Below, piece by piece: positions 3,349 to 21,556 of a DNA stretch of 64,000 bases. The stretch lies in the NCBI RefSeq assembly GCF_018847975.1, contig NZ_CP072597.1:2953001-3017000 (forward strand), given 5' to 3'. The notes under the pieces were generated by a model, which saw only the letters and a program-made list of their open reading frames with translations, was not told where the DNA came from and did not search any database. This stretch comes from Lysobacter sp. K5869. Lineage in GTDB: Bacteria > Pseudomonadota > Gammaproteobacteria > Xanthomonadales > Xanthomonadaceae. A program made the translations under genes and the position numbers. Each line of letters starts with the position of its first letter. The stretch's first letter is position 1.

Positions 3349-3826
3349 GGCGGCCGTCCTGGGTCAGTTCCGGGCCGAGCGGCAAACAGCCTTCTTCCGG
3401 ATATTCGGTGATCCACGCGACATGCGAGTAACGGCGCAGCGCGCCGACGTCGTCCGGAACGCCATCGAGCGGCGCCTCGGAAATCGTGTACTCGCACTCC
3501 AGCTCTTCGTCCGGCGGCATTTTGCTGCGGTCGAAGTGCAAGCCGGTGAACTCGGCAAGCTCCAGGATTTGAGCGACAGTGAGGGTCACGCTCTGGCGCG
3601 GCGCGGGCTCCGCTGCGGCTTCCTTGTGTCGCTTCCAGTACGCCAGCGCCGACCCGGGCACGCGGTCGATGATGGCGCGGCCGTAGACGGTTTCGCCACC
3701 GGCGCCGATGGGGTCGATGCTGTTGATCGCGCAGTCCAGCGACTTGCAGCGATCGCCGATCACGAAACCGCCGCTCGGGCTGGTGTAGATGATCGCGTGC
3801 AGGGTTTCGGGCAGATTCTCGTCCAC
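3341..3826 (-). CDS. Hypothetical phage protein (161 aa)
   Basis: This acidic soluble protein starts at GTG with DENLPETLHAIIYTSPSGGFVIGDRC and includes a helix SVTLTVAQILELAEFTGLHF. No domain was recognised. It overlaps the cupin-like gene by 8 nt and lies just downstream of rdgC in the same operon. Confidence 0.6.
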   Translation of the reverse strand: MDENLPETLHAIIYTSPSGGFVIGDRCKSLDCAINSIDPIGAGGETVYGRAIIDRVPGSALAYWKRHKEAAAEPAPRQSVTLTVAQILELAEFTGLHFDRSKMPPDEELECEYTISEAPLDGVPDDVGALRRYSHVAWITEYPEEGCLPLGPELTQDGRHA

Positions 3827-5291: not shown

Positions 5292-5768
5292 CTACCTGCC
5301 GGCGGGAGGCGCGGACCAGATCACGCCGCGCTCGTTGCCGAACTCGTCGATCAGGTCCATAAGCTGGGTGAGTTGCCGCACGCTCATCTGCGACGTGCGC
5401 TCGCCGAAGGCGACGACACCGCCGTACAGGCCGGCGAAGGTGTGCGGCTGGAAAAGCGCCGCGGTGAACAAGTCCTTGAACTGCGCGGACGTCAGGCGCC
5501 GCGCGCGGGGAAACTCGGACAGCAAGACGTAGGCGCCGTCTTCGATCAGGCGATCAGCGCGCCAGCGCGCCGGCTTGTAGCCGACCTGTTCGGCCAAGTC
5601 CTGGAGAAGCACCCACATGCGAGCGTTCTGCTCGTTGGAGCGCTTCGGCTCCGCGATGGTCACGCTGCGCGCGCCCTCGCGAAGCTCGGAGCCGAGGGCG
5701 TCCAGGAAGCGGCGTTTCACCGCTTCGTACTCCGGCAGCCGCCGATCCAGGACGAAGGTCGCCATCAT
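5292..5768 (-). CDS. NinB/Orf-family recombination protein
   Basis: The 158-residue protein has the NinB hallmark SNEQNARMWVLLQDLAEQVGY near residues 45-65. A second conserved block follows, running through the FKDLFTAAL segment, and then VVAFGERTSQMSVRQLTQLMDLI. Lambda NinB (Orf) is a single-strand DNA-binding recombination mediator that replaces RecFOR functions. The start overlaps the stop of the upstream exonuclease gene (TGATG), linking it to end resection. Confidence 0.85.
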   Translation of the reverse strand: MMATFVLDRRLPEYEAVKRRFLDALGSELREGARSVTIAEPKRSNEQNARMWVLLQDLAEQVGYKPARWRADRLIEDGAYVLLSEFPRARRLTSAQFKDLFTAALFQPHTFAGLYGGVVAFGERTSQMSVRQLTQLMDLIDEFGNERGVIWSAPPAGR

Positions 5769-6448
5769 CAGAACCTCACGTCCGGATCGCTGATGTCGAA
5801 CCCTTCAGCGCGCGGCGGCTGGTACGTGTTCCGGCTGTTGCCGATGACTTCGATCCACTGCTGAACCTTCGGCTCCAGCAGCGCCACGCGCTCTTCCATC
5901 TGCTGGCGCTCGTCCTCAGTGATTTCGCAGTCGATCAGCAGGCCGCCGGCCTGCGGGTGGTAGGCGAGGAATTCCAGCCCGTCGAGCTGCCCGACCCACA
6001 TCGCCCAGCGCGTTTGCCAGCGATATTCAGCCGGAACCTTGCCCTGCTTTTTGCAGGACATCCAAGCCTTGTGCAGCGGGCACTTCGCCTCGATGGCGCG
6101 GCGCGCGTCGCCGACGTAGAGCCCGTCGGGAGACCAGCCCACGTTCGGCAGCGTAGCGTGCAGGACGAAGCCGACCTGCTCGATTTGAACGCCGCGCTCC
6201 TGGCAGAACCAGGCGCGCGCCTCGGGCTCCAGCTCGTTGCCGCGCTCCATCGCGGACGACTTGAACCCGCCGCCGGTGGGGCCGAAAACGCGCTCCCACG
6301 CGATGTCCTGGATCAGCGACGCGAGTCCGCCGGTGTCCAGGCCGCCCATGATGACGGCGGCGCTGGACGCGCTCCACTTCCCGGCTTTGATCGCGTACCA
6401 CTCCGGGCTGTGCTGCTCGATTTCGCGATGAATGAGGGGTGCGGACAT
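5768..6448 (-). CDS. YqaJ/lambda-type exonuclease
   Basis: The 226-residue protein carries PD-(D/E)xK nuclease signatures of the YqaJ/lambda Exo family: HSPEWYAIKAGKWSAS near the N-terminus, MERGNELEPEAR (about 67-78), SPDG with Asp near 108, and EAKCP with Glu 120 and Lys 122. It would resect double-strand ends to expose 3' single strands for annealing. An upstream GAGG at a normal distance supports the ATG at 6448. It sits between the SSB-like and NinB-like genes. Confidence 0.88.
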   Translation of the reverse strand: MSAPLIHREIEQHSPEWYAIKAGKWSASSAAVIMGGLDTGGLASLIQDIAWERVFGPTGGGFKSSAMERGNELEPEARAWFCQERGVQIEQVGFVLHATLPNVGWSPDGLYVGDARRAIEAKCPLHKAWMSCKKQGKVPAEYRWQTRWAMWVGQLDGLEFLAYHPQAGGLLIDCEITEDERQQMEERVALLEPKVQQWIEVIGNSRNTYQPPRAEGFDISDPDVRF

Positions 6449-7123: not shown

Positions 7124-7795
7124 TCAGGCGGCCTCGCGGTTGGTGCTGGCCGGCGCAATCTCGTAGAACTCGCAGATGCAGTCGTCCACCAGCTTCAGGT
7201 CGTTGGGAATGCGCTCTTCGTCGAACAGGCCCATCGGGGCCTTGACGGTGTCGGCGCCGCTGTTGCGCGTGCTGAACTCGTGCTTGCCGTCGGTGACGGT
7301 GGCGCGCAGCACGATGGAGACCAAGCCTTCCAGGACGATTTTTTCGTCCAGCATCTTGCCGATGGTCTTCAGCTTGGTCGTGCCGTTCTCGTCCTCCTGG
7401 CTGTGGCTCAGCAGGTAGACGCGGACGTCGTCGGGGAGGGTGGAAAGCACGGTGAACACCTCCCAGCCGTGCTTCGCGATGTCGGTGAACTTGTCGTAGC
7501 CGCGCTCGTCGCTGCGGCGCATCAGCTCGTTTGCGAGCATGTACTGGAAATCGTCGATGACGATGACCTTGCGGCTGGTCTTCGCCGCGATCTTCAAGAT
7601 CGTCGCCGCCTGATCGGTGGTGAAAATGTTGCCGGTCGGGCAGTTTTCCGGGTGGAAGTGCTTCCAGGCACCGGACTTGAACGGCAGCGGCTTTTTGACG
7701 ACCTGCACGAGCAGGGTTTGCGCCGGGTCCATCCCGCGCAGGCTGGCGGTCTTGCCTGCGCCGGACTTGCCGATGATGACGGTGACGGTGCTCAT
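7124..7795 (-). CDS. Sak4-like RecA-fold P-loop ATPase
   Basis: The 223-residue protein has Walker A GKSGAGKT at 9-16 and Walker B VIVIDDFQ near 77-84. Its length and single RecA-like core fit the Sak4 class of phage single-strand annealing ATPases. It lies directly upstream of the SSB-like gene. It could alternatively be a generic phage AAA ATPase, but the recombination context favours Sak4. Confidence 0.75.
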   Translation of the reverse strand: MSTVTVIIGKSGAGKTASLRGMDPAQTLLVQVVKKPLPFKSGAWKHFHPENCPTGNIFTTDQAATILKIAAKTSRKVIVIDDFQYMLANELMRRSDERGYDKFTDIAKHGWEVFTVLSTLPDDVRVYLLSHSQEDENGTTKLKTIGKMLDEKIVLEGLVSIVLRATVTDGKHEFSTRNSGADTVKAPMGLFDEERIPNDLKLVDDCICEFYEIAPASTNREAA

Positions 7796-8587: not shown

Positions 8588-9781
8588 TCAGGCCTCCACC
8601 GGCCGGCCGTCGCGCAGCAGGTAGAACGTGTCCGCCTTGATTCCGTCGTGGCCGGCGATGCCGGCCCACACGGCGACGATCTTGTAGTCGTCATCGCGCT
8701 CGACCAGGAAGAGCGCGCAGCCATCGGCGCCGGACGCGCGACCTTCGTACCCAGAGGCCATCGCCGCGCCCTGGTAGCCCGTCGCGCTCGCCGCGCCCCG
8801 GGTGCCCGTCGCGCTCGCCGCGCCCTGGTCGCCCGTCGCGCTCGCCGCGCCCTGGGTGCCCGTCGCGCTCGCCGCGCCCCGGGTGCCCGTCGCGCTCGCC
8901 GCGCCCTGGTCGCCCGTCGCGCTCGCCGCGCCCCGGGTGCCCGTCGCGCTCGCCGCGCCCCGGGTGCCCGTCGCGCTCGCCGCGCCCTGGTAGCCCGTCG
9001 CGCTCGCCGCGCCCTGGTAGCCCGTCGCGCTCGCCGCGCCCTGGTCGCCCGTCGCGCTCGCCGCGCCCTGGGTGCCCGTCGCGCTCGCCGCGCCCCGGGT
9101 GCCCGTCGCGCTCGCCGCGCCCTGGTGCCCGTCGCGCTCGCCGCGCCCTGGTAGCCCGTCGCGCTCGCCGCGCCCTGGTAGCCCGTCGCGCTCGCCGCCG
9201 CCCTGGGTGCCCGTCGCGCTCGCCGCGCCCCGGGTGCCCGTCGCGCTCGCCGCGCCCTGGTCGCCCGTCGCGCTCGCCGCGCCCTGGTAGCCCGTCGCGC
9301 TCGCCGCGCCCTGGTAGCCCGTCGCGCTCGCCGCGCCCCGGGTGCCCGTCGCGCTCGCCGCGCCCCGGGTGCCCGTCGCGCTCGCCGGCGACGCCGGATC
9401 GATCGGCAGCGCGCGCTTGAACGTGTAGTCGATGGCGGCCTTGATAAGCCCAGGCAGACCAATCTCCAGCTTCACGCGGATCACGCCGCTGGCGATCTTG
9501 TTGGCCTCGCGGCTCAACTCGCCCGACTGTTCGACCAGCGCGAAGCGACTGCCCGCGGGCGGATAGAAGCGGAACACATCCAGCGGATACTCGCAGGCGT
9601 GGAATCCGCCTTCGCAAGCCTTCACGACGCCGCTGTGCGTGTAGGTCTTGCCGACTTCGTACTGCACGCGCTGGCCGCCGTCCGGGCTGCACGCCAGATC
9701 CTTGTCGAAGCCCTTGTAGCTCGTGACGGTCTCGGGCTTGGCGCTGCTGGCCGCTTCGGCGGCTTGGTCGTTGCTGCTCAT
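8588..9781 (-). CDS. DUF7666-like protein with 23 nonapeptide repeats
   Basis: The 397-residue protein has three parts. Residues about 1-140 hold a conserved domain with YKGFDKDLACSPDGG, YEVGKTYTHSGVVKACEGGFHACEYPL and RFALVEQSG, matching the DUF7666 family of phage proteins. Residues about 141-350 are tandem nonapeptides of consensus ASATGxxGA, where xx is TR, YQ, DQ or TQ. The C-terminus (DGCALFLVERDDDYKIVAVWAGIAGHDGIK) is conserved again. Three central repeats read GERDGxPGR because a one-base insertion and a one-base deletion shift the frame and restore it. The repeat shape suggests a beta-solenoid-like rod. The function is unknown. Confidence 0.75.
   Translation of the reverse strand: MSSNDQAAEAASSAKPETVTSYKGFDKDLACSPDGGQRVQYEVGKTYTHSGVVKACEGGFHACEYPLDVFRFYPPAGSRFALVEQSGELSREANKIASGVIRVKLEIGLPGLIKAAIDYTFKRALPIDPASPASATGTRGAASATGTRGAASATGYQGAASATGYQGAASATGDQGAASATGTRGAASATGTQGGGERDGLPGRGERDGLPGRGERDGHQGAASATGTRGAASATGTQGAASATGDQGAASATGYQGAASATGYQGAASATGTRGAASATGTRGAASATGDQGAASATGTRGAASATGTQGAASATGDQGAASATGTRGAASATGYQGAAMASGYEGRASGADGCALFLVERDDDYKIVAVWAGIAGHDGIKADTFYLLRDGRPVEA
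8769..9387. repeat. 27-bp tandem repeat array, about 23 units
   Basis: Units of 27 bp repeat head to tail inside the DUF7666-like gene. They differ mainly in the three to four bases that encode the variable dipeptide. Two units have altered length: one is short by one base near 9125 and one long by one base near 9197. These cancel, leaving the 3' end of the gene in frame. Such an array should be prone to slippage and unequal recombination. Confidence 0.9.
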
Positions 9782-10038
9782 CGTTCGGTTCCTTGCGCAG
9801 TGGAGTGGTTGGGCGCCGACGTGGCGCAGACTTCGCGGGAAAAGGCAGTAAGGACGTGGCGCGGGCGAGCGATCGCCAGGCGCTGCAGGTCGGCGCGCGC
9901 CGCCGCAGCGTCGAGACCGGAAGGCGCGCCGAGCGCGGCCATGCGGGCTTCGGGGATGGCGTCGACCACGGCGAAGGCTTCGCGGATCAGGCCGCGGCGC
10001 TGGCGCGCGCGGGATTCGTGGGAGCGGTTGCGGCTCAC
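9778..10038 (-). CDS. Hypothetical phage protein (86 aa)
   Basis: It starts at GTG 10038 (VSRNRSHESRARQRRGLIREAF), overlapping the upstream stop as GTGA. The protein is Arg-rich and helical. No family was recognised. Confidence 0.5.
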   Translation of the reverse strand: MSRNRSHESRARQRRGLIREAFAVVDAIPEARMAALGAPSGLDAAAARADLQRLAIARPRHVLTAFSREVCATSAPNHSTAQGTER

Positions 10039-10388
10039 GGCGACACCACGGCGCGCGGGCGCTGCAACATGTCGGCGAAGGCGTCGGCGGCGCGCGCGGT
10101 GCGCTCGTAGCGCTTCGCGTCGACCTGCCGTTCGGCGGTGCGGCGCAGGCGCGCGGCAACCAGCCGTTGCATCAGCGCGGTGTATTCGGTCCAGTCGCCC
10201 GAGCGGAAGGACGCGACCATCTGCGCGTCGAGCGCGTCGTAATCCTCGTTTTCCAGGCTGCCGAGCGCGCTCAGCACTTCGGCGTCGTCCTGCATCAGCT
10301 CGGTGACGCAGGCGGTCACCGCAGCGGCGCGGGCGTCGGCGGTCTCGCCGGCCCAATCGGTGGTGACGTGGAAGTCGCGGGCGCTCAC
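10035..10388 (-). CDS. Hypothetical phage protein (117 aa)
   Basis: It starts at GTG 10388 (VSARDFHVTTDWAGETADARA), again overlapping the upstream stop as GTGA. It is acidic in the middle and basic near the end, predicted all-helical. No family was recognised. Confidence 0.5.
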   Translation of the reverse strand: MSARDFHVTTDWAGETADARAAAVTACVTELMQDDAEVLSALGSLENEDYDALDAQMVASFRSGDWTEYTALMQRLVAARLRRTAERQVDAKRYERTARAADAFADMLQRPRAVVSP

Positions 10389-13338: not shown

Positions 13339-13486
13339 CCCGATGCGACGGAAAAAGACCCTCAAGCCCGGCGAAGCCGGCAACCATGTGGCGGCGTTGC
13401 GCGCGCTGTATCGGCCCGCGCCGCAGCCGGCGCCGACACCCACGCCGGCCGAGCCCAAGCCCGTGACCAAGGAGCAGCGCGATTGA
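13274..13486 (+). CDS. Hypothetical phage protein (47-70 aa, start uncertain)
   Basis: The frame reads FRRLLGPWPWELDPMRRKKTLKPGEAGNHVAALRALYRP, then a Pro-rich tail. ATG 13343 gives 47 residues. A TTG at 13274 would include the Trp-rich segment but overlaps the previous gene by 65 bp. The tail PQPAPTPTPAEPKP is probably disordered. No family was recognised. Confidence 0.5.
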   Translation: MELRTKTVQFRRLLGPWPWELDPMRRKKTLKPGEAGNHVAALRALYRPAPQPAPTPTPAEPKPVTKEQRD

Positions 13487-13974
13487 GCGCGGATGTGCTC
13501 CTGCAACGCCTGGACAAGGTCCAGAAGTCCGGCCGCGGCTGGCGCGCGCTGTGCCCCGCGTGCGGCGGCCGCGGCCGGAAGCTGTCCATCACCGAGTCCG
13601 ACGACGGCCGCCTGCTGCTGCATTGTTTCGCGGGCTGCCCGGCCGGCGCGGTGGTGCAGGCGGTCGGCCTGACGCTGGCCGACCTGTTCCCCGAAGCGCC
13701 GGAGGACGACAAGGACAAGCCGGAAGATCGCCGCCGGCGTCGCCGCGCCGCGCGCGAGGCGCAGTGGGGCGCCGCCCTGGAAATGCTGGACTTCGAAGCG
13801 ACCATCGTTGCGATCGCCGCCGCAGACCTGGCCGCGGGCAAGGCGCTATCGGATGAAGACGCGGCGCGCCTGGCGCTGGCGCGCGAACGCATCGACGGCG
13901 CGCGCACCGTGCTGCGCGATCTGCAGCCGTGGCGACCGTCCGAGCGGTTCGTGTCCGGCGAGGCCGCCGCATGA
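13483..13974 (+). CDS. Primase-type zinc-ribbon protein
   Basis: The 163-residue product has CPACGG (Cys 24, 27) and HCFAGC (His 47, Cys 48, Cys 52), the CHC2-type zinc finger of DnaG-like primases and phage gp4-type helicase-primases. No TOPRIM domain follows, so it is a stand-alone template-recognition module or loader. It ends in ATGA overlap with the helicase gene, suggesting the two proteins act together. The start is TTG 13483, or a GTG 12 bases on. Confidence 0.7.
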   Translation: MSADVLLQRLDKVQKSGRGWRALCPACGGRGRKLSITESDDGRLLLHCFAGCPAGAVVQAVGLTLADLFPEAPEDDKDKPEDRRRRRRAAREAQWGAALEMLDFEATIVAIAAADLAAGKALSDEDAARLALARERIDGARTVLRDLQPWRPSERFVSGEAAA

Positions 13975-15200
13975 CGCCGTCGAACCTGGAATCGCGAGCG
14001 GAACGGCAGGTTTACGCCGCGGACGACCGCGACGAGGAACTGGCGAACATGTACGGCGGCGGTGAGCGTGCGCGGGCCTCGGTGGAGCACGCGAGCAAGG
14101 CCGCTGCCGCAGCGGCGTCGCCGCGCCTCGCGTTCGTGCCCATCGGCGAGTTCCTGGCGAACGTCACGGCGCCGAAGTGGCTGATTCGCGACATCGTCGA
14201 GAGCGATTCGCTGCTGATGATCTTCGGCGACCCGGAGTCGGGGAAGTCGTTCTTGGCGATGGACTGGGCCGCCAGCGTGGCGACCGGCCGCGAGTGGAAC
14301 GGGTTTCCCGTGAAACAGGGCCCGGTGCTCTACATCAACGGCGAAGGCCGCAACGGCGTCAGCCGCCGGTTCAGCGCTTGGAAAATCGCCAACGGCTGCG
14401 CGCTGGAGGCGGCGCCGCTGTTCCTGTCGACGGTGTCGACCGCGCTGACCGACGGCATGGGTCGCGCCGAGCTGGAGGCGGTGGTGGCCGAGTTCGTCGC
14501 TGCCTACGGCGCGCCCGCGCTGATCGTCATCGACACCCTGGCGCGCAACTATGGCCCCGGCGACGAGAACAGCACCCAGGACATGACCGCGGCCGTCGCG
14601 ACCTGCGACAGCCTGCGGGAAATGACGCAGGCCACGATCGCACTGGTCCACCACAGCGGCCACGGCGACAAGAACCGGGCCCGCGGCTCGATGGTGCTGC
14701 GCGGCGCGCTGGACGCCGAGTACCGCATGACCCGGACCGAGGGCGGAGACACGATGCTGGAGTCGACCAAGATGAAGGACGCCGAGCACCCGCAGCCGAT
14801 GGCGTTCAAGTTCGCCCAGGTCGAGCTAGGCCTGGTCGACGACGATGACCGCATGGTCACGTCGGCGGTGCTGCGGCGAACCGAAATGCCGCAGCCCGGA
14901 GACGAAGGCGAAGAGCGAAGCGGCGGCCGGCCGCACGGCCGAGGCCAGCCGCCGGGCCGCGGCAAGCACCAAACCCGAGCCCTGGAAATCCTGCTGCGGC
15001 TGCACGCCGAGCACGTCACCAATGTGATGCGAGCCGGACGGAACCCGTCTGAGGCGCATGTTCACATCGAGACGTGGCGCGACAACTGCATCGAGGCCGG
15101 CATACCGCGGAACCGCTTCAACGATTTGCGGCAGACCCTGGTCAACACCAGGAAGGTCCGCATTGACCTGGGGTTCGTCACCCCATTGGCGGACGCATGA
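13971..15200 (+). CDS. RepA-type replicative helicase (AAA_25)
   Basis: The 409-residue protein has Walker A GDPESGKS at 86-93 and Walker B LIVIDTLAR near 184-192. A VHHSGHG motif and an RGSMVLRGALD segment follow, as in RepA/RSF1010-type hexameric helicases. A basic Gly-rich linker (about 320-345) leads to a C-terminal winged-helix-like tail. It is expected to unwind the phage origin. The iteron-rich segment begins only 15 bp after its stop. Confidence 0.82.
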   Translation: MTPSNLESRAERQVYAADDRDEELANMYGGGERARASVEHASKAAAAAASPRLAFVPIGEFLANVTAPKWLIRDIVESDSLLMIFGDPESGKSFLAMDWAASVATGREWNGFPVKQGPVLYINGEGRNGVSRRFSAWKIANGCALEAAPLFLSTVSTALTDGMGRAELEAVVAEFVAAYGAPALIVIDTLARNYGPGDENSTQDMTAAVATCDSLREMTQATIALVHHSGHGDKNRARGSMVLRGALDAEYRMTRTEGGDTMLESTKMKDAEHPQPMAFKFAQVELGLVDDDDRMVTSAVLRRTEMPQPGDEGEERSGGRPHGRGQPPGRGKHQTRALEILLRLHAEHVTNVMRAGRNPSEAHVHIETWRDNCIEAGIPRNRFNDLRQTLVNTRKVRIDLGFVTPLADA

Positions 15201-15391
15201 GCCCCGTTCATTTCGACCGGTTTAAGACCGGTTTTCGACCGGTTTATCAGGCTCCGGGCCCCCTTGACCCCGACCGGTTTGGGCCTCGGTATAAAGAACT
15301 ACGTTCTTTATACCGGCCAAACCGGTCGGTCAGGGCAAGCGACCGGTTTGACCGGTTTGAACTTAAACCGGTCGGACGGTGGTCGCGATGA
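15197..15391 (+). CDS. Possible small ORF across the iteron region (64 aa)
   Basis: The ATG overlaps the helicase stop (ATGA), which is how genes are joined in this operon. The translation (FDRFKTGFRPV... DRFDRFELKPV) simply reflects the repeated GACCGGTTT iterons. It may be a genuine short peptide overlying an origin, or an ORF created by the repeats. I favour the second. Confidence 0.25.
   Translation: MSPVHFDRFKTGFRPVYQAPGPLDPDRFGPRYKELRSLYRPNRSVRASDRFDRFELKPVGRWSR
15215..15373. other. Candidate phage replication origin: eight iterons plus a long hairpin
   Basis: The 9-mer GACCGGTTT occurs at 15215, 15226, 15237, 15272, 15341 and 15350, and reversed at 15319 and 15365. The first three are exactly 11 bp apart, one helical turn. 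In the middle (15287-15315) is a perfect inverted repeat with 13-bp arms, the left one CGGTATAAAGAAC, around a TAC loop. It is the most AT-rich segment nearby. Iterons plus an AT-rich dyad next to a helicase gene is the classic plan of a phage or plasmid origin. No separate initiator gene was identified, so the bound protein is unknown. Confidence 0.72.
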
Positions 15392-15978
15392 ACTATCGCC
15401 TGCACCGCGTAGCCGATGCCCGCCTCGTCGGCATGACCAACGCCTATCCGCAGCCCGAGCGGTTCCCCGTCGGGCACCCCGAGCGTGAGCGCGAGCAGCA
15501 GCGGAAGAACGCCTTCGTGGCCGCCTTCGCGGCGGGGCTGCTGCCGCGCCATCCGCCGACATCGCGCGCGTGCGCGCGCAACCTCCATCAGGAGCGACCG
15601 GCCATGAGCCATTCCGAAACCCTGCAGCACATGCTCGACAACGACCTGGACCTGCGCGATTCGGAAGCGTCGGCGATCCGGTCGGCGATCTTCGTCCTGT
15701 CCCAGGCTCGCCAGCGCCGCGAGCGCATCGCCACAGCGGCGATGCAGGGGCTGCTCGCGAGCGGAGTCGTCTACGAGGAGACGGTCGCGAAAAAGGCTGT
15801 GGTGCAGGCGGATGCGCTGCTGGCCGAGCTGGAAAAGCCGCTTCGCCCGTTTGGCTGGTATCGGCCGCGCCAGGGCGAGGACGCTGATCAGGAGCCCGAA
15901 TTCCGAACCAGCCAGCCACCGCACGGCCACGGCTGGCTGCCGGTGCCGGCCGCTGCGCCGGCGGAGTGGAGCCGATGA
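15388..15978 (+). CDS. Hypothetical phage protein (196 aa)
   Basis: The N-terminal third (NYRLHRVADARLVGMTNAYPQPERF) is followed by a helical domain, SETLQHMLDNDLDLRDSEASAIRSAIFVLSQ. The end is Pro-rich. An in-frame ATG at 15604 has GGAGCG upstream and could give a shorter product. No family was recognised. Confidence 0.55.
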   Translation: MNYRLHRVADARLVGMTNAYPQPERFPVGHPEREREQQRKNAFVAAFAAGLLPRHPPTSRACARNLHQERPAMSHSETLQHMLDNDLDLRDSEASAIRSAIFVLSQARQRRERIATAAMQGLLASGVVYEETVAKKAVVQADALLAELEKPLRPFGWYRPRQGEDADQEPEFRTSQPPHGHGWLPVPAAAPAEWSR

Positions 15979-20152: not shown

Positions 20153-21556
20153 GTGGCGCTCACCGCGGCGGAAAAGCGCGAGCAGATCGCGCTGATAGAA
20201 GAGAGCCTTCGGCGCCGGCGCGAAAACCGGCTGGCGCTGTATCGGCCGTATGCCAAGCAGGCCGAGTTCCATGCGCTGGGCGCTGCGATCCGCGAACGGC
20301 TGCTGATGGCCGGCAACCAGTTGGGCAAGACCTGGTGCGCCGGCTTCGAATCGTCGATGCACCTGTGCGGCCGCTATCCCGATTGGTGGGAGGGCCGGAC
20401 CTGGAATCGCGGTGTCGCGGGCTGGGCGGCCGGCGTCACCACCGAAGTGACGCGCGATTCGGTTCAGCGCGTGCTGTGCGGTCGCATCAACGCGATCGGC
20501 ACCGGCGCGATCCCGAAGAACGCGATCAAGTCGTACACCAAAAAGCGCGGTGTGGCCGACGCGCTCGATACCGTCGTGGTCCTGCACGGCGGCGGCGGCG
20601 ACATCCAAGCCGACGAAAGTCTGCTGACCTTCAAGAGCTACGACCAGGGCCGCGAAAAGTTCCAGGCAGAAACCTTGGATTTCGTATGGCTCGATGAGGA
20701 GCCGGACGAAGACATTTACACCGAGGCGCTGACGCGAACGAACGCGACCGGCGGCATCAATTTCATGACGTTCACGCCCCTGAAGGGCGTGACCACCGTG
20801 GTTAAGCGCTTTCTCGTGGAGAAGGTGCCGGGTTCGCAGGTGGTCGGCATGACCATCGAGGACGCCGAGCACTACACCCCCGAGCAGCGCGCCGCGATCA
20901 TCGCCAGCTATCCGGCGCACGAGCGCGAGGCGCGAACGAAGGGCATTCCGATGCTGGGCAGTGGTCGCGTGTTCCCGATCGAGGAAGCGGCGATCACGGT
21001 TCAGCCGTTCGCGATTCCGCGCGAGTGGGTGCAGATCGGCGGCCTGGACTTCGGTTACGACCATCCGTTCGGCGCGGTCCGGCTGGCGTGGGATCGCGAC
21101 GCCGACGTGCTGTACGTCATCTCCGCGTATCGCGAGCGGCTGGCGACGCCGGTGATTCACGCCGCGGCGCTGCGCCCTTGGGGCGACTGGCTGCCGTGGG
21201 CGTGGCCGCACGACGGACTGCAGCACGACAAGGGCAGCGGCGAGGAACTGGCGAAGCAGTACCGGGACCAGAAGCTGAACATGTTGCCCGAGCGCGCGAC
21301 CTTCGAAGACGGCGGCAACGGCGTCGAGGCCGGTGTGACCGAAATGCTGGACCGGATGCAAACCGGCCGCCTCAAGGTGTTCGCGCACCTGTCCGACTGG
21401 TTCGAAGAATTCCGCCTCTACCACCGCGAAAACGGCCGGATCGTCAAATTGAACGACGACCTGCTGAGCGCGACCCGATACGCCCTGATGATGCGCCGCT
21501 TCGCTGAAACCAGCCAGGCCGCGCGCCCCCTGCAATTCCGCTCCGAGTTCGGCTGA
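20153..21556 (+). CDS. Terminase large subunit
   Basis: The 467-residue protein has the ATPase Walker A AGNQLGKT at 53-60 and Walker B DFVWLDEE near 175-182. The C-terminal nuclease domain begins LDFGYDHPFGAV with metal-binding Asp near 298. It drives DNA into the procapsid and cuts concatemers. The start is GTG 20153, 4 nt after the previous stop. Confidence 0.93.
   Translation: MALTAAEKREQIALIEESLRRRRENRLALYRPYAKQAEFHALGAAIRERLLMAGNQLGKTWCAGFESSMHLCGRYPDWWEGRTWNRGVAGWAAGVTTEVTRDSVQRVLCGRINAIGTGAIPKNAIKSYTKKRGVADALDTVVVLHGGGGDIQADESLLTFKSYDQGREKFQAETLDFVWLDEEPDEDIYTEALTRTNATGGINFMTFTPLKGVTTVVKRFLVEKVPGSQVVGMTIEDAEHYTPEQRAAIIASYPAHEREARTKGIPMLGSGRVFPIEEAAITVQPFAIPREWVQIGGLDFGYDHPFGAVRLAWDRDADVLYVISAYRERLATPVIHAAALRPWGDWLPWAWPHDGLQHDKGSGEELAKQYRDQKLNMLPERATFEDGGNGVEAGVTEMLDRMQTGRLKVFAHLSDWFEEFRLYHRENGRIVKLNDDLLSATRYALMMRRFAETSQAARPLQFRSEFG

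Follow-up and report, generated by a model that had tools for sequence, protein, structure and literature searches.

An array of short repeats lying directly behind a helicase gene in a prophage of Lysobacter sp. K5869 is likely to be the replication origin of that prophage, with the helicase encoded just upstream as its initiator, a reading drawn from sequence comparison. The array lies in a 64,000-nucleotide stretch of chromosome (the whole DNA analysed, hereafter the window), where an earlier note had proposed a candidate phage replication origin. Comparison with relatives, in which a repeat array and a hairpin recur and the repeats covary with the helicase, supports this proposal. The same note saw no recognised initiator, a view that has to be revised: a winged helix is predicted at the C-terminus of the helicase, and its recognition helix covaries with the repeats.

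The array, the dyad and the helicase gene

Eight exact copies of the iteron GACCGGTTT are packed within 159 bp, six of them direct (15215, 15226, 15237, 15272, 15341 and 15350, + strand) and two inverted (15319 and 15365, − strand); the first three direct copies (15215..15245, +) are spaced 11 bp apart. This confirms the arrangement first described. These eight are the only exact copies in the window (mean 0.37, maximum 2 in 100 dinucleotide shuffles), and 50 of the 58 copies in the 5.97-Mb genome lie outside the array. At its centre is a perfect AT-rich dyad (15287..15315), the proposed site of opening or loading, whose 13-bp arms flank a 3-nt TAC loop, exactly as previously reported, and are the longest among the window's perfect hairpins (loop up to 8). 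The dyad has a GC content of 37.9%, vs. 68.7% for the window, and the lowest-GC 29-mers within 13.7–16.9 kb (34.5%) start at 15284–15286, in agreement with its description as the AT-richest spot nearby. It is enclosed by a larger, slightly asymmetric palindrome that the earlier note does not mention (15270..15329; arms 15270–15282 and 15317–15329) and that carries one iteron per arm, direct in the left (15272..15280, +) and inverted in the right (15319..15327, −), followed by two direct iterons arranged head to tail (15341..15358, +) and a further inverted one (15365..15373, −). Four copies therefore lie on either side of the dyad, with no clean mirror symmetry, as the right side mixes two direct and two inverted copies. 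The helicase stop codon ends at 15200, and the first iteron begins 15 bp past the gene end, directly behind the helicase gene as the earlier note had it. Two features of PICI/SaPI origins are thus found in the window, namely a position immediately 3′ of the initiator gene and two iteron sets around an AT-rich stretch.

The helicase gene (13929..15200, +) encodes a RecA-fold motor of the AAA_25 family and a C-terminal winged helix. Read from the GTG at 13929 the protein has 423 amino acids; because the database entry for the same protein has 409, the start may instead be the ATG at 13971. AAA_25 (1.4e-41) is the only Pfam domain found at E 0.001, the Pfam scan of the 423-amino acid protein giving no match to an SF3 helicase, a Toprim primase or an archaeo-eukaryotic primase. 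RSF1010 RepA is the only PDB sequence match at E 0.01, and fold comparison assigns the protein to the RSF1010 RepA/RadA/DnaB class, with RSF1010 RepA at the top of the list, tied with RadA within 1 Z. By sequence and predicted fold it is therefore RSF1010-RepA-like, the type of helicase found in the RSF1010 (IncQ) replicon, and not a Rep helicase of the DUF927 or D5_N/Primase_Cterm kind (SaPIbov1, SaPI5). The best named homologue among the 120 matches listed, of 2480 homologues scored, is from Lysobacter enzymogenes (92% identity). RepB_primase domains (PF16793) are fused to some homologues, and none was matched in the ten window proteins scanned. Structure prediction places the winged-helix domain, the proposed iteron reader, at residues 346–419 (14964..15185, +), and its recognition helix, a helix in the model that also contains the covarying columns described below, at residues 394–406 (15108..15146, +).

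Upstream lies a gene for a 163-amino acid zinc-finger primase-like protein (13483..13974, +), a possible priming partner, in which the zinc motif was recognized by eye; it has no Pfam match, and residues 6–81 match the DNA primase family phrog_6088 (8e-11). Other neighbours are phage genes, encoding a YdaS-type regulator, a protein weakly matching a repressor, a RusA-like resolvase and the large terminase (20153–21556), the last of which sets the element apart from PICI/SaPI satellites. A downstream reading frame starts where the array ends or close to that point. The opposite strand harbors a recombination module with a RecE-like exonuclease (5768–6448, −) and a Sak4-like single-strand annealing protein (7124–7795, −), as well as an ORF (8588–10159, −) in which GxxGAASATG-type peptide units are repeated in tandem over a long tract and which contains the window's strongest repeat clusters.

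Arrays and hairpins behind related helicases

Relatives were drawn from genome collections, GTDB contigs, IMG/VR (best 80 per scan), named phages and plasmids, giving 284 loci, many of them near-identical or duplicate, which were reduced to 52 (including the window's own) at 70% identity over the last 340 residues. An array was called where the repeated-7-mer count in the 260 bp at the helicase 3′ end reached a p of at most 0.01 against 200 dinucleotide shuffles. A significant 3′ array was found in 39 of the 52 non-redundant loci, and the same count was reached in 15 of 3158 control windows of these 39, windows that overlap (65-bp steps) and that, like the motif detection, are crude. Loci with the window's winged-helix type have an array in 25 of 29 cases, and those with other C-termini in 14 of 23. 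The repeat sequence differs by lineage, and a central palindrome is frequent behind the helicase stop.

The array test failed in 13 of the 52 loci (L018, L021, L046, L048, L050, L051, L141, L144, L146, L148, L152, L156 and L157), two of which, L046 and L048, have gene-end repeats visible by eye. Arrays of other repeats stand 3′ of helicases with a different C-terminus at L015, L016, L017, L019, L028, L117, L139, L142, L143, L147, L149, L151, L153 and L225. Ten named records were examined out of the 580 phage and 18 plasmid records matched by tblastn. The array is clear in six of them (Roseobacter CRP-406, Alteromonas PB15, Idiomarinaceae 1N2-2, Rhizobium 16-3, Salicola CGphi29 and the Caenibius plasmid p1), weak in two (BcepGomr, phi674) and absent behind the helicase in two (Vibrio 1.210.O, Caulobacter RW). 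The earlier note had advised a search of related phages for conserved iteron spacing. The paired iteron GWCCGGTTT-NN-GWCCGGTTT has six matches among 398 genomes of the order, in 3 of them, and by coordinates each match falls no more than 120 bp behind a helicase of the window's family. The helicase-linked array outranks every other repeat cluster of the molecule in two phage-like plasmids, both circular, Caenibius p1 (12 copies) and Methylobacterium currus unnamed4 (8 copies), the runner-up having 4 in each, and no other replication initiator is named in their gene tables, which are incomplete and rich in hypothetical proteins.

Hairpins recur in the same place. A strong hairpin (best score 9 or more) is present in 34 of the 52 3′ regions vs. 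78 of 1745 control windows, a comparison that constitutes the actual test because the hairpins were chosen by pairing. The 3′-region hairpin is strictly the best of the whole locus in 27 of 52 cases (expected at most 2.0). Hairpin arm sequences vary between lineages. A C-TWWA-G-like centre occurs in 21 of the 34 3′-region hairpins and in none of the 78 control hairpins, and CCTWWAGG, present in 18 of the 52 3′ regions, has a density there (18 in 16,640 bp) ∼55 times that in the rest of the loci (6 in 307,952 bp). The window dyad lacks this centre, common as it is in relatives, which, like the loci that fail the array test and the mixed iteron orientation to the right of the dyad, counts against the origin reading; its ACTACGT centre is shared by L028.

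Several loci depart from, or add to, this simple layout. The span 15197–15391, which contains the window array, is exactly that of a 64-amino acid open frame that starts inside the helicase stop codon and ends exactly where a further ATG follows. Small frames that hold the array, start in the helicase stop (ATGA/GTGA) and end in ATGA are found in the window, L010, L054, L138 and L149. A coupled start occurs in 20 of the 39 array loci. The frame extends across the array in 13 of these, where shuffles predict 6.6, and in five of the 13 it ends in ATGA; such a frame could perhaps serve as a bridge that keeps ribosomes running across the origin. In the lake-type phages L072, L082, L103 and L105 one or more extra ORFs (187–290 amino acids), the first starting at the helicase stop, separate the helicase from an array about 0.7–1.4 kb downstream, and an array at about 0.9 kb is also present in L061, L081, L089 and L112. 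L012 combines the helicase-array module and a tmRNA gene in one 4-kb stretch, the array being followed by a HEPN-family gene in convergent orientation, and is possibly a satellite or integrated element near its attachment site. Rhizobium phage 16-3 (L306) has eleven copies of CGTGACA in 260 bp of an unannotated gap (3467–3823) behind p101, a Prim-Pol/AAA_25 protein, and this array is a candidate origin for a named temperate phage.

Covariation with the recognition helix and rival explanations

In partial Mantel tests iteron sequence goes with the recognition helix (r 0.59, p 0.0005), not with the ATPase domain, for which r is about 0. Iteron distance likewise correlates with winged-helix distance when ATPase distance is controlled (r 0.575, p 0.0005), the reverse comparison, ATPase distance with the winged helix controlled, giving r −0.13 (p 0.99), in Mantel permutations that correct only partly for phylogeny. 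The correlation persists when only the 23 loci serving as 70% representatives are used (r 0.45, p 0.0005), and columns 396, 394 and 393 show the highest covariation with iteron sequence out of 286. Some relatives have near-identical motors with different DNA readers. Mean iteron similarity is 0.84 for pairs in which ATPase and recognition helix are both similar (34 pairs), 0.43 for those with a similar ATPase and a different recognition helix (62 pairs), and 0.38 for those in which both differ (262 pairs); the converse combination, a different ATPase with a similar recognition helix, is hardly covered, with only 2 pairs (50%/60% cuts; similarity 0.52).

These results bear on which protein reads the iterons, for which the earlier note had named the small zinc-finger protein, an unknown gene or the helicase itself; the comparison points to the helicase. 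Alternatively, the array could be an origin whose iterons are bound by a different protein, be it the zinc-finger primase-like one, a regulator or some unknown gene product, which would then recruit the helicase. This has a precedent in RSF1010, where iteron binding and helicase activity reside in separate proteins (PMC4234260), and several small genes up- and downstream have no assigned function. We nevertheless consider it unlikely, given that the iterons track the recognition helix of the helicase rather than its motor domain; a neighbour gene that merely co-travels would not be expected to single out recognition-helix columns, in a comparison of helicase columns alone. The same covariation weighs against an operator at which a transcription factor controls the downstream genes. 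Operators can take the form of short repeated sites beside genes, and the downstream frame does start at or near the array end; however, a scan of 14900–15900 for sigma-70-type promoters found none, and in one case, L012, the array sits between convergent genes, the other being of the HEPN family. The transcription-factor site that the earlier note held out as an alternative thus finds little support and is very improbable.

Two further functions seem more remote still. The strong hairpin behind an operon gene, together with sub-threshold matches of the hairpin to miRNA families, could suggest a transcription terminator or structured RNA to which the repeats are secondary, but we give this hardly any credence: 14900–15900 contains no terminator-like site, a T-rich tail on either side accompanies just 3 of 42 family hairpins (11 named records added), and across 19 loci no Rfam family reaches the gathering threshold for this element. 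Iteron arrays have also been proposed as centromere-like sites, as in phage B83 (PMC6669507), and one of the two phage-like plasmids encodes a ParA, though about 11 kb from the array. We scarcely expect the array to serve in partition or stability rather than as an origin, since the covarying DNA reader is a replicative helicase and the window element is an integrated prophage.

Proposed mechanism and comparison with known systems

If the array is an origin read by the helicase, the C-terminal winged helix would bind the GACCGGTTT iterons flanking the dyad, and the bound copies would place their RecA-fold motors at the AT-rich palindrome, which would open as a bubble or cruciform. Hexamers could then load at the palindrome and forks exit, probably in both directions, with priming by the host primase, perhaps together with the upstream zinc-finger protein; in some relatives priming may come from the fused primase domains. 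It seems to us an evenly balanced question whether this extends to a large group of phages and phage-like plasmids, in which a RecA-fold helicase of the RepA/DnaB class would be its own origin-recognition protein and its own loader: the C-terminal domain would read the 3′ iteron array, rings would assemble at the central hairpin, and specificity would shift by swapping the C-terminal domain along with the adjacent array, with no need for a separate initiator or loader. Such a rule predicts an origin just behind the helicase gene in phages such as Rhizobium 16-3, Alteromonas PB15 and Idiomarinaceae 1N2-2, and pairs of proteins with alike motors and different readers make the recognition code directly testable.

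DnaB needs other proteins to find its origin, and most known cases of a helicase recognising its own origin belong to the SF3 class. SV40 and E1 provide SF3-class examples (PMC3401641), and RSF1010 RepA depends on RepC for finding its origin (PMC4234260). The origin plan seen in the window was stated in 2018 to be common to no replicon except the PICIs (PMC6092414), a statement that would be contradicted if the arrays are origins. Among the top-ranked matches in titles and abstract openings of openly licensed PMC articles, a scope that does not include subscription literature, no description of this arrangement for AAA_25/RepA-like phage helicases was found.

The window resembles several known systems in part. 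Lambda O/ori-lambda is likewise a phage origin with iterons at replication genes, but O is not a helicase, and lambda P loads host DnaB; unlike in the window, the lambda iterons lie inside the replication gene. The P4 alpha helicase is of the SF3 class, and the P4 layout comprises ori plus crr. Alpha shares with the window helicase a C-terminal winged-helix origin-binding domain (PMC4234260), but joins helicase and Toprim primase in one chain. RSF1010 oriV has the closest motor (RepA) along with iterons and hairpins, but its iterons are bound by the separate RepC, and RepB′ primes at ssiA/ssiB (PMC4234260); in the window the proposed reader domain appears fused to the helicase. TWINKLE and T7 gp4 are, like the proposed window helicase, RecA-fold rings that load without specialised loaders, with no iteron-binding domain mentioned in the passages on them (PMC3401641); as loader-free RecA-fold rings are already known, the new element would be built-in origin recognition.

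The closest parallels in layout are pRN1-type and SaPI/PICI origins. In pRN1 (ORF904) the origin lies directly downstream of the replication protein gene, the protein has a C-terminal winged helix, and a stem-loop is conserved as a structure and not as a sequence (PMC4234260), although pRN1 combines an SF3 helicase with an archaeo-eukaryotic primase and is without iterons. In SaPI/PICI rep-ori the origin lies immediately 3′ of the initiator-helicase gene and is recognised by the C-terminal domain of the helicase (PMC7581432, PMC6092414), as proposed for the window; SaPI Rep helicases, however, are of the DUF927 or D5_N/Primase_Cterm kinds (PMC7581432) rather than AAA_25/RecA-fold, and SaPIs are satellites, whereas the window element, judged by its large terminase gene, is a phage. 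The best reading of these sequence likenesses is that the window origin would work in the manner of SaPI/PICI rep-ori and pRN1, differing in its RecA-fold motor and in belonging to phages that carry structural genes.
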